Assembly (NCBI GenBank): GCA_017856605.1
Contig: JAFMES010000002.1
Location: 1 to 34,062 of the forward strand
Reading direction: 5' to 3'
Origin: Chitinophagaceae bacterium
Lineage (GTDB): Bacteria > Bacteroidota > Bacteroidia > Chitinophagales > Chitinophagaceae
Length of the DNA: 34,062 bases
Shown here: positions 7,174 through 17,668 of the stretch, piece after piece
How the letters are laid out: each line of letters opens with the position of its first letter
Numbering within the stretch: the first letter of the stretch is position 1
Made by a program: the position numbers and the translations under genes
Notes under the pieces: generated by a model
Databases searched by the model: none
What the model saw: the letters and a program-made list of their open reading frames with translations, nothing else
Told to the model about the DNA's origin: nothing

Positions 7174-9174
7174 ATGGAATTTGATCGCAAACATCTTACC
7201 GACGCAGAACTGATTTCCTTTTATAAGGAATTATTGTATTCTCGACAGATCGAGGAAAAAATGATTGTGTTGTTGCGTCAGGGGAAAGTCGCAAAATGGT
7301 TCAGCGGAATTGGGCAAGAAGCTATTTCGGTTGGCGCTGCAATGGCCTTGCACAAAGATGAATGGATTATGCCCTTGCATCGCAACCTGGGTGTCTTTAC
7401 GGTCAGGGGCATGACACTCGAAAAGTTATTTCTGCAATGGCAAGGGAGCAAGGAGGGGTACAGTAAAGGCAGAGAACGGAGCTTTCATTTTGGATCAGCA
7501 GATCATCATATAGCAGGAATGATCTCCCATTTGGGTCCTCAGTTAGCACTAGCCGATGGTGCAGCGTTGGCGTATAAATTAAAAGGTGAGCATAAAGTTG
7601 CACTTGCTTTTACGGGCGATGGTGGAACTTCGGAAGGAGATTTTCACGAGGCGTTGAATGTTGCTGCGGTTTGGGATCTTCCCGTCATTTTTGTGATTGA
7701 GAACAATGGGTATGGCTTGAGTACACCTACTGCTGAGCAATACCGCTGCGAATCATTGATCGATCGTGCAATCGGCTATGGCATAGAAGGGGTAAAGATT
7801 GATGGAAATAATATATTGGAAGTTTACGATACGATCCGAGGCGTGCGTGAGTATTGCATTGAACAACAGAAGCCTTACTTGATCGAGTGCATGACATTTC
7901 GTATGCGGGGGCACGAAGAGGCCAGCGGTGTGAAGTATGTCCCTCCGCAGTTATTTGAGCAATGGGAAAAGAAAGATCCGGTAGTTCGTTACGAAGAATG
8001 GCTGTTGATGAATGAGGTCATCAATGTAGATGAGCTCTGCGCCATCAATGATGCCATTCGTCATCGCATAGAAGAAGAATTGAAAGCGGGACTTGCATTT
8101 GAGAAAAATGCAGTCGATGTTGAAGAGGAAATTCAAGATGTATTTGCCCCTTCACCTACTTCGTTGCCATTGAGTTTTGAACTGTCGCAATCTGGTTTTC
8201 CGCAGCGCGATACTCCGGTTCGCATGATCAATGCCATTACAGAGGCGCTCGATCAATCGCTCACCATCCATGAAAATCTTGTGTTGATGGGACAAGACAT
8301 TGCAGAATATGGAGGCGCGTTTAAGGTTACCGAAGGGTTGGTTGATAAATATGGGAAAGAACGCATCCGCAATACACCGTTGTGTGAGAGTGCCATCATT
8401 GGAGCTGCATTGGGACTTTCACTTGAAGGGTTTAAGTCGGTTGTAGAAATGCAGTTTGCCGATTTCGTTTCAGTTGGTTTCAATCAGATCGTGAATAACC
8501 TTGCCAAGATTCATTATCGGTGGGGACAATCCGCTGACGTGGTGATTCGAATGCCAACCGGTGCAGGAGTTGGTGCGGGACCTTTTCATTCCCAAAGCAA
8601 TGAAGCATGGTTTTTTCATGTACCGGGCTTGAAAATTGTTTATCCTTCCAATCCTTCTGATGCAAAAGGATTATTGATGGCGGCAATCAATGATCCAAAT
8701 CCTGTATTGTACTTTGAGCACAAGGCATTGTATCGGAGCATAAGTGGTCGCGTTGATCCTGCTCCTTATGAAGTTGAAATTGGGAAAGCGACTCTTGTAC
8801 AATCAGGGGATGATATCAGCATCATTACCTATGGAGCGGGAGTACATTGGGCATTGGAGTATGCAACCCAACACCCCGAACTCTCCATTGAACTACTCGA
8901 TCTGCGATCACTTGCTCCACTCGATCTTCCTGCCATTGAACAAACTGTCCGAAAAACAAATCGGGTATTGGTGTTGCATGAAGATAATTTAACGGGGGGC
9001 ATAGGTGCTGAGATTGCAGCATGGATATCTGAAAATTGTTTTGCTGCACTGGATGCTCCAGTCATGCGATGCGCCAGTTTGGATACTCCTATACCATTCT
9101 CACCGGAGTTGGAGCAACAGTACCTTGCGAAATCACGACTGCATACAGCAGTTCAACGACTCATTTCATTTTAG
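7174..9174 (+). CDS. 2-oxo acid dehydrogenase E1 component, fused alpha and beta subunits (thiamine-dependent)
   Basis: ThDP motif GDGGTSEGDFHEALNVAAVWDLPVIFVIENNGYG in the N-half; beta-subunit hallmarks (MGQDIAEYGGAFKVTEGL, RMPTGAGVGAGPFHSQSNEAWFFHVPGLKIVYPSNP) in the C-half. Confidence 0.92.
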   Translation: MEFDRKHLTDAELISFYKELLYSRQIEEKMIVLLRQGKVAKWFSGIGQEAISVGAAMALHKDEWIMPLHRNLGVFTVRGMTLEKLFLQWQGSKEGYSKGRERSFHFGSADHHIAGMISHLGPQLALADGAALAYKLKGEHKVALAFTGDGGTSEGDFHEALNVAAVWDLPVIFVIENNGYGLSTPTAEQYRCESLIDRAIGYGIEGVKIDGNNILEVYDTIRGVREYCIEQQKPYLIECMTFRMRGHEEASGVKYVPPQLFEQWEKKDPVVRYEEWLLMNEVINVDELCAINDAIRHRIEEELKAGLAFEKNAVDVEEEIQDVFAPSPTSLPLSFELSQSGFPQRDTPVRMINAITEALDQSLTIHENLVLMGQDIAEYGGAFKVTEGLVDKYGKERIRNTPLCESAIIGAALGLSLEGFKSVVEMQFADFVSVGFNQIVNNLAKIHYRWGQSADVVIRMPTGAGVGAGPFHSQSNEAWFFHVPGLKIVYPSNPSDAKGLLMAAINDPNPVLYFEHKALYRSISGRVDPAPYEVEIGKATLVQSGDDISIITYGAGVHWALEYATQHPELSIELLDLRSLAPLDLPAIEQTVRKTNRVLVLHEDNLTGGIGAEIAAWISENCFAALDAPVMRCASLDTPIPFSPELEQQYLAKSRLHTAVQRLISF

Positions 9175-14648: not shown

Positions 14649-15401
14649 TTAAAAACGGTCTTCTTCCACGCGGACTTTTGGGAGGATGCCAGAACGAAAA
14701 TAGCGTGAGGCATCAAGAATGTATTGGTGAAACTGATATTCTTGTGTGAAGGCTACCAATTCGTAGGGGGGGCGCCACAGTTTCATGAAGCGTTCGATAT
14801 CGCGATCGTTGAGACCGGTTATTTGTCGCACTAACGCCTTTGTAAATCGGGAGTCGACAAATTTTTGTTGTTCTTCCAGGATCAAGCGACTCTGGAAGCT
14901 GCGCATGACTTTATTTTTTCTGAACTTGAACGAATTGATGAGGCTGTTGGGATCCAGGAAACCGGATGAGGTCGTTTGGAGTCCCCCTCCTTCAAACTCA
15001 AAAATGCTTCGATAGCGTTCTCTGTTCTCCAGCGAATCTTGTCGGTAGGATTTACCGATGACCACCACTTCTTTGAGCGTTCTGTAGCGGTCTTGAACAG
15101 TGACCTGAAGGGATACATCAAATCCAGCCGGGTAGCGTATTTCACGAACTGGAAAGAAGGTCGTGGATTTGCCGCGATAGGTAAATGCAATGGAATCATC
15201 TTTTTGAACATAGAAGCCGTATCGACCAATGGAGTCGGTAAAAGTAAACACACCTCTTTTACTGGTCACTTTCACAGCGGGGATGGTAACCATGCGGGTG
15301 GAATCGTACACTTTTCCAGTAAGCCATACTTGGGCATGGAGAGGCTGTTCTGAGCAGAGCAGCAGGAGGGCAATGATTGGAATAGTTATTTTGATGCCCA
15401 T
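14649..15401 (-). CDS. carboxypeptidase-regulatory-like domain protein, function unknown
   Basis: Signal peptide then GKVYDSTRMVTIPAVKVTSKRGVFTFTDSIGRYGFYVQKDDSIAFTYRGK, typical of the Bacteroidota CarboxypepD_reg domain. Confidence 0.75.
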   Translation of the reverse strand: MGIKITIPIIALLLLCSEQPLHAQVWLTGKVYDSTRMVTIPAVKVTSKRGVFTFTDSIGRYGFYVQKDDSIAFTYRGKSTTFFPVREIRYPAGFDVSLQVTVQDRYRTLKEVVVIGKSYRQDSLENRERYRSIFEFEGGGLQTTSSGFLDPNSLINSFKFRKNKVMRSFQSRLILEEQQKFVDSRFTKALVRQITGLNDRDIERFMKLWRPPYELVAFTQEYQFHQYILDASRYFRSGILPKVRVEEDRF

Positions 15402-16294
15402 TTCTCGATCACCTTTGGATAATGGAGGTGTTCCAATTGGTGTATTTTTTGAGCCAGTGATTCGGGGGTGTCGGAGGAATCTACGGCGGTCCTGGCCTGG
15501 AAAATTGTTTTTCCATGGTCATATTCGCCGTCCACCAGGTGGATGGTGATGCCCGATTCGGGGTCGCCAGCGGCCAGGACCGCCTTATGGACATGTTCCC
15601 CATACATGCCCTTTCCTCCATGGGAGGGAAGCAGTGCCGGGTGAATGTTGACCATCCGGTTCGGAAAGGCATTTATTAGATTATCGGGAATTTTCCACAG
15701 AAAACCAGCCAAGACTATATGTGTAATTCGTTGATTTTTAATACTTTGAACATATTGATCCGAATGCATAAACGGTTCCCGTTGGAGGATCAGTTTGGGG
15801 ATGGAGTACCGATCTGCAATATCCAGCACCCCTGCGTCCGGGCGGTTGCATGCAATCAACGATACTTTTATAAATTTATGATTATCAAAGTATTGTATAA
15901 TTTTTTCTGCATTACTTCCCTTCCCGGAGGCAAATAGAGCGAGTCGCACTTCCGGGTAGCTCATGAGTCCCATTCTCCTCAGGATCTTTTTTTCATAGTT
16001 CCAGAAGAAGGGAAATTGTCCAAAAACCACGGAAACCAGGAGCAGAATGACTTGATAACCGAAGATCAGGACGGATAATCGAAGGAGGAGTCGCCATACC
16101 CAGTAGGTTTGTTCATCAAAACCTACCCACTGTGTGATTTCTCGTGAAACAATCGCCGTAGAGGTACCGGTTACAGCAAATGTGCAGAGGATGAGAAAGA
16201 GTTGAATTGGTGAAACGTTCCACTTTTGCTGCAGTTTGTTGAACATTCTGCAAAGAGAAGAAAAAAATGTTTTCTGTCTCTTTCCGTCTGTCAT
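15386..16294 (-). CDS. purN: phosphoribosylglycinamide formyltransferase (PurN) fused in frame to an N-terminal DUF6787-like membrane module
   Basis: PurN motifs: VRLALFASGKGSNAEKII, MVNIHPALLPSHGGKGMYG, GITIHLVDGEYDHG. N-terminal ~110 aa hydrophobic module (MFNKLQQKWNVSPIQLFLILCTFAVTGT...FGQFPFFWNYEKKILRRMGL). PurN-only start possible at ATG 15964. Confidence 0.85.
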   Translation of the reverse strand: MTDGKRQKTFFSSLCRMFNKLQQKWNVSPIQLFLILCTFAVTGTSTAIVSREITQWVGFDEQTYWVWRLLLRLSVLIFGYQVILLLVSVVFGQFPFFWNYEKKILRRMGLMSYPEVRLALFASGKGSNAEKIIQYFDNHKFIKVSLIACNRPDAGVLDIADRYSIPKLILQREPFMHSDQYVQSIKNQRITHIVLAGFLWKIPDNLINAFPNRMVNIHPALLPSHGGKGMYGEHVHKAVLAAGDPESGITIHLVDGEYDHGKTIFQARTAVDSSDTPESLAQKIHQLEHLHYPKVIEKWASK

Positions 16295-16408: not shown

Positions 16409-17668
16409 ATGAATCATATAAGAAAAGCCTTTTTCAGTTTATTTTTTCCGTTTTTTTTATTGTTCTCTTTCTCGCTCGGTTCGAATGTCAATGCTCAGGA
16501 TGGTAAAGCACTTTTCAATCAGAAGTGTGCTTCCTGTCACGCGATTGACAAGAACCTCGTGGGCCCTGCACTGAAGGGGGTAGAGGAGCGTTGGGACGAT
16601 AAAAGCATGTTGTACGATTGGGTACGCAACAGTGCTGCAGTAATTAAAAAGGGATATCCCCGTGCAGTAGCCGTATACAATGAATACAACAAGGTGCAGA
16701 TGACTGCGTTCCCTGAATTGAAGAACGAGGACATCGATGCAATTCTGGGCTACATCAATACTGGTGGTGCAAAGGCAGCTGCTGCAGCTACGGATGTTCC
16801 AGCAGGCGGCTCACCTGAAAGCAAAGCTGCGGAAGACGATTCCAATTTGCTGTATGGTATCCTCACCATCATCCTGGCGGTGATTGCAATGATCCTCTTG
16901 CAGGTGAACAGCAATCTGAGTAAGATGTCAGAAGAGGCGGAAGGAAATGCAGTAGCAGAGCCGGTTCCATTCTATCGCAATAAAGCGTACATCGCCATTT
17001 TTGCGATTTTGTTGTTCTTGGGTGGTGGGTACATGACCTTCCAGGGTGCACAAAATTTGGGGCGTTCAAAAAATTATCAGCCGGAGCAACCTATTTATTA
17101 TTCTCATACCGTTCACGCAGGAATCAATCAAATCAACTGTTTGTATTGCCATGGTGGTGCGCAAGAAAGTAAGCACGCCAACATTCCATCCGTGAATGTG
17201 TGTATGAATTGTCACATGGGTATCAATGAATATGCTAAAGGTCCCCAGTTGTACCGCGAAGATGGTTCTAAGGTCGACGGAACAGCAGAGATTCAAAAGT
17301 TGTACAAATATGCAGGTTGGGATCCAGCCAAGAAATTATATACAGGAAAGGGGCAAGCGATTGAGTGGGTGCGCATCCACAATCTTCCCGACCACGTGTA
17401 TTTCAATCACGCGCAGCACGTAACTGCCGGGAAGCAGCAGTGTCAGACGTGTCATGGTGAGATTCAGAAGATGGGTGAGGTGTATCAGTACAGTGATTTG
17501 AGCATGGGATGGTGTATCAACTGCCACCGTGAATCAAAGGTGCAGTTCACCGACAATAAATTTTACAGCATTTACGAGCAGTTCCATGAGGACATGAAGA
17601 ATAAAAAACTCGACAGTGTAACAGTCGAGAAGATTGGCGGAACGGAATGTCAAAAATGCCACTATTAA
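16409..17668 (+). CDS. actA: Alternative Complex III subunit ActA, multiheme c-type cytochrome with N-terminal monoheme domain
   Basis: Six CXXCH motifs (CASCH, CLYCH, CMNCH, CQTCH, CINCH, CQKCH); signal peptide; two predicted TM segments between the first and second heme motifs; followed by actB-F. Confidence 0.93.
   Translation: MNHIRKAFFSLFFPFFLLFSFSLGSNVNAQDGKALFNQKCASCHAIDKNLVGPALKGVEERWDDKSMLYDWVRNSAAVIKKGYPRAVAVYNEYNKVQMTAFPELKNEDIDAILGYINTGGAKAAAAATDVPAGGSPESKAAEDDSNLLYGILTIILAVIAMILLQVNSNLSKMSEEAEGNAVAEPVPFYRNKAYIAIFAILLFLGGGYMTFQGAQNLGRSKNYQPEQPIYYSHTVHAGINQINCLYCHGGAQESKHANIPSVNVCMNCHMGINEYAKGPQLYREDGSKVDGTAEIQKLYKYAGWDPAKKLYTGKGQAIEWVRIHNLPDHVYFNHAQHVTAGKQQCQTCHGEIQKMGEVYQYSDLSMGWCINCHRESKVQFTDNKFYSIYEQFHEDMKNKKLDSVTVEKIGGTECQKCHY

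Follow-up and report, generated by a model that had tools for sequence, protein, structure and literature searches.

PurN, the folate-dependent GAR transformylase, is a textbook soluble enzyme. In eukaryotes the same activity belongs to the trifunctional protein GART (GARS-AIRS-GARTfase), in which an N-terminal partner of GAR transformylase is tolerated. DUF6787 (PF20584) is a small, free-standing membrane protein of Bacteroidota, about 100 residues long. Our literature search found no paper that names DUF6787 and nothing relevant on membrane-bound or fused PurN.

The window analyzed here is a stretch of 34,062 nucleotides from a Chitinophagaceae bacterium (contig JAFMES010000002.1). On its minus strand, an ORF at 15386-16294 runs for 302 codons without a stop, and a Pfam search found two modules in this single frame, a DUF6787 membrane hairpin and, after it, a complete GAR transformylase. 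GAR transformylase is the C-terminal part both here and in eukaryotic GART, but in GART it is joined to soluble enzymes that act in the same pathway, and in the window to a membrane hairpin. Alignment with near relatives showed that the first 16 codons of the ORF have no counterpart, and that the first Met of the relatives is that of MFNKLQQKW, with none upstream. For these two reasons we place the probable start at the ATG at 16246, 48 bases inside the ORF. The initial annotation was right that the frame is open for 302 codons and joins two modules, but the true start likely lies at this inner ATG. Below, residue numbers for the catalytic residues, M111 and the Pfam spans follow the 302-codon frame, and those of the model helices follow the 286-residue product.

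15386..16246, minus strand: DUF6787-PurN fusion gene from its conserved, probable start (286 aa), the first Met common to near relatives (MFNKLQQKW)
16247..16294, minus strand: 16 extra codons of the 302-codon ORF, unconserved and probably untranslated

The module boundaries given by the initial annotation are present in the sequence, with DUF6787 at residues 34-111 and PurN at residues 117-296 in the Pfam search. The hydrophobic N-terminal module, originally described as DUF6787-type, matched PF20584 at 74.2 bits (cut-off, 27.5), and a search of the genome (77.1 bits) found it to be the sole DUF6787 copy. Like the stand-alone protein, it has a full-length profile match, two hydrophobic helices, an MF..LQxKW start and a basic end; it differs in running on into PurN.

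15962..16195, minus strand: DUF6787 (PF20584) match, 77.1 bits in the genome search
16124..16210, minus strand: predicted first membrane helix, model residues 13-41 (AF2 model, local pLDDT about 63-72; hydropathy 1.88 over 19 residues)
16025..16102, minus strand: predicted second membrane helix (TM2), model residues 49-74 (AF2 model; hydropathy 2.52 over 19 residues)
15974..16015, minus strand: basic helix after TM2 (FFWNYEKKILRR), the conserved end of the DUF6787 module (AF2 helix 78-91; alignment)
15947..15970, minus strand: eight-residue linker GLMSYPEV (8-64 residues in other fusions)

The three helices lie in a DUF6787 half that is modeled with moderate confidence (pLDDT 63-75). Hydropathy revealed two hydrophobic helices upstream of PurN in all 45 of the fused proteins, and in these 45 the positive charge is higher at the ends of the hairpin than in its loop. 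By the positive-inside rule, this charge pattern suggests that both ends are cytoplasmic, on the side of the PurN substrates; membrane insertion and topology are predictions from hydropathy, charges and the model.

Across our phylum sample, DUF6787 occurred in 69 of 248 genomes, and outside Chitinophagaceae it is a free protein of about 100 residues. At 20 loci outside this family, no purN lay within about 6 kb of DUF6787. The neighbors of stand-alone DUF6787 in other families shared no common theme (serine synthesis genes, DUF937, DUF6146, a TonB receptor, a histidine kinase and PriA). In three genomes of another family (f5), DUF6787 proteins with frames of about 180-200 residues (L232:2733-3344, L233:2892-3476 and L234:2568-3101) carry an additional, weaker hydrophobic unit on their N-terminal side, resembling a doubled hairpin.

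The C-terminal half is a full-length PurN, as had been read initially. It matched PF00551 (Formyl_trans_N) with 126.5 bits (cut-off, 26.1), and the top fold matches of the predicted model were GAR transformylases, with a pLDDT of about 90 or more across most of this half. The Asn, His and Asp listed below align with those of solved PurN proteins and are invariant in relatives; we take their E. coli equivalents, N106, H108 and D144, to have the catalytic roles generally assigned to them.

15389..15946, minus strand: PurN catalytic domain (PF00551; TIGR00639, about 132-134 bits; fold match to solved GAR transformylases)
15647..15649, minus strand: catalytic Asn N216, equivalent to E. coli N106
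15641..15643, minus strand: catalytic His H218, equivalent to E. coli H108
15518..15520, minus strand: catalytic Asp D259, equivalent to E. coli D144

With known PurN (PF00551, TIGR00639; 3p9x, 1cde) the fusion has in common the fold, the length, the catalytic Asn-His-Asp and its place as apparent sole copy among the purine genes; it adds the N-terminal two-helix membrane module. Its TIGR00639 score of 132 bits compares with a cut-off of 150.1 and a next best family at 49.6 bits. Other Chitinophagaceae PurN proteins, fused and unfused, scored 135.7-152.6, the unfused ones likewise near the cut-off, so the low score probably reflects a family trait measured against a strict model.

A profile search of the contigs found one PurN match in the assembly besides Fmt, and hence no second, stand-alone purN of the kind that the initial annotation had suggested looking for, although a second copy could have been missed in an assembly that is 91.6% complete. 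One candidate for such a copy, on C61, reads as Fmt. No PurT was found in this 91.6% complete assembly; the best candidate (88 bits against a cut-off of 502) proved to be the end of PurK running into PurE, both named from reading their sequences. PurH is present at full length, with 502 bits, just below its cut-off of 528. PurM gave weak partial matches alone (C182:11155-11517 and C21:15905-16294, L229 and L230; 64 bits against a cut-off of 236), which may represent a divergent or split gene. With one PurN, no PurT and other purine genes present, the fusion should be the working GAR transformylase of the cell.

The fusion is widely shared. A scan of public genomes recovered the complete fusion in nine relatives, of which eight show 64-69% best-segment identity and one, isolate PMP191F, shows 50%. 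In many of the 150 Chitinophagaceae genomes of our initial sample the two parts share a single frame, and a stop-to-stop analysis of 140 genomes and the window found the fusion in 36 of these 141, from 27 genera. Among the remainder, DUF6787 lies just upstream of purN on the same strand in 17, is linked in 7, lies elsewhere in 9 and is absent from 72, half of the family. Since it occurs in 36 of 141 family genomes and in nine further relatives, the fusion is far beyond chance and is not an error. Later checks revised some assignments: G124, first classed as having DUF6787 elsewhere, has a fusion cut by a contig end, and overlapping gene pairs were seen in G260 and G067. Adjacent, unfused genes are found in about 18 genomes. 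(In G124, L242:3110-3439, DUF6787 continues in frame into VRVAIFASGTGTNAR, where the contig ends.) The dN/dS ratio is low in both modules, at about 0.02-0.12 in close-relative pairs with unsaturated silent sites, and points to strong purifying selection on the frame in these pairs; comparisons of the window with its relatives were set aside because their silent sites are saturated. Genus g54 is discordant, with adjacent genes in one genome (L133, G053) and a fusion in another (L084, G141), and provides a good pair for direct comparison.

The genes on either side of the fusion are as follows:

16409..17668, plus strand: ActA, first gene of the divergent alternative complex III operon, marking the orthologous locus (beside purN in 113-114 of 150 loci)
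14649..15401, minus strand: downstream gene overlapping the stop of the fusion by 16 bases, with a weak CarboxypepD_reg-like match (family beside purN in 55 of 150 loci)

ActA and alternative complex III are presumptive names that follow general usage for these families. As purN is divergent beside ActA in about 113 of 150 loci, the purN loci are orthologous; synteny with ActA-E is kept, and where DUF6787 is missing, ActA and PurN lie closer together by roughly the length of one DUF6787 gene (median distance, 298 versus 589 bases). Elsewhere in the window, at 7174-9174, a 666-residue frame reads like both 2-oxoacid dehydrogenase E1 subunits in one protein.

On a tree of concatenated ActA-E proteins, the fused and adjacent states interleave. 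The 51 taxa in either of these states require a minimum of 11 switches, and well-supported branches force 10 of these. The tree represents one linked operon, and if the whole locus were transferred between lineages, the tree genes and purN would travel together. With regain of DUF6787 forbidden, a fused ancestor requires 10 splits and an adjacent ancestor 16 fusions, and both scenarios entail about 23 losses of DUF6787. At six adjacent loci (L103, L127, L132, L151, L159 and L194), DUF6787 and purN overlap as TAATG or ATGA, an apparent sign of coupled translation. One small indel would join such overlapping frames, while splitting needs a new stop and a new start, and this difference would favor repeated fusion over repeated splitting. 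The linkers of the fusions, 8-64 residues long, vary freely without conservation and look like former spacer sequence.

We consider it likely, if not assured, that the gene yields one obligate, anchored and active PurN fusion that arose by the joining of translationally coupled neighbors. The DUF6787 hairpin, with two membrane helices and both ends cytoplasmic, would anchor a complete, active PurN on the cytoplasmic side of the inner membrane. There it would carry out the normal third step of purine synthesis as the cell's only folate-dependent GAR transformylase. The ancestral state would have been a DUF6787-purN neighbor pair beside the alternative complex III operon, with stop and start overlapping or nearly touching, so that one small indel or stop loss could join the frames; this joining, or its reversal, would have happened at least 10 times in Chitinophagaceae. 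The role of the tether is the least certain part: it may be tolerated, or useful mainly for joint expression, and may not be needed for catalysis. It cannot be generally needed, because PurN without it serves half of the family well, and where present, a protease could free PurN from its anchor. That the state switches often, that linkers vary freely and that half of the family has lost DUF6787 all argue for a tether that is tolerated or serves simple co-expression. Some functional link is suggested by how closely DUF6787 stays tied to purN within the family.

Such a link might go further, with the anchor bringing PurN close to a partner in the membrane or into a purine complex bound there, and selection keeping the fusion for that role. 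Its maintenance in 27 genera, with both modules constrained, is consistent with this, as is the finding that the 70 genomes keeping DUF6787 are mostly fused or adjacent (36 and about 18). However, the frequent switching, the many DUF6787 losses, the lack of linker conservation and the occurrence of DUF6787 away from purN in other families lead us to regard selected tethering as unlikely, though with a real chance of being correct. In its boldest form, this reading would have about a quarter of Chitinophagaceae perform the third purine step obligately at the inner membrane, and the repeated, independent fusion of one gene pair would stem from selection for purine enzymes assembled at the membrane and anchored by DUF6787, a proposal that we hold to be distinctly doubtful.

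A single obligate product was not what the initial annotation had envisaged: it proposed that an internal start at the junction could let one locus make both the anchored full-length fusion and a soluble PurN. The elements on which this rested are indeed in the sequence, with in-frame ATGs at 15973 and 15964 and AGGAG at 15975-15979, and an ATG occurs in 13 of 45 fused linkers.

15962..15964, minus strand: proposed internal start ATG, M111 of the 302-aa frame, unconserved (I or L in L035, L036, L037, L038, L039, L040 and L062)
15975..15979, minus strand: AGGAG within the AGG AGA codons of the conserved KKILRR motif, no credible ribosome site (sequence; Shine-Dalgarno use in the window; Bacteroidota reports)

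However, of the eight nearest relatives one has Met at the position of M111 and the other seven have I or L. In nine fused loci spread over several genera (L036, L039, L040, L073, L080, L081, L082, L086 and L114), the stretch that joins DUF6787 to the first strand of PurN lacks ATG, GTG and TTG codons alike; their nearest upstream start is 31 to 104 codons off, and the next one downstream falls within PurN. Linker ATGs are near the number expected from codon use (15 observed versus 12.6), and start-like codons as a whole fall below expectation (30 versus 45.5). A Shine-Dalgarno-like 4-mer precedes 2 of the 22 window genes. The AGGAG falls in the two codons for the conserved RR of KKILRRMG, and Shine-Dalgarno pairing is reported not to be used by the ribosomes of Bacteroidota (PMC6847099, PMC9976891); for both reasons the AGGAG is no credible ribosome site. 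An internal start is no conserved feature of the fusion, and while a second product may yet be made in the window species or some others, we judge the dual-product reading improbable.

An assembly or sequencing error, or a recent stop loss in the window genome, had also been raised, and the metagenome-like assembly of 252 contigs and the separate adjacent genes of relatives lend it some color, but with the same frame under purifying selection and recurring in many independent genomes, including the single-contig genome G087, the evidence from relatives rejects it.

The cell's apparent only copy of PurN, membrane-anchored and gained or lost many times at one locus, would make this family a natural experiment on gene fusion and splitting. 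The fusion to PurN is also a concrete lead on DUF6787, and an anchored PurN would make it possible to test directly whether purine synthesis can take place bound to a membrane.
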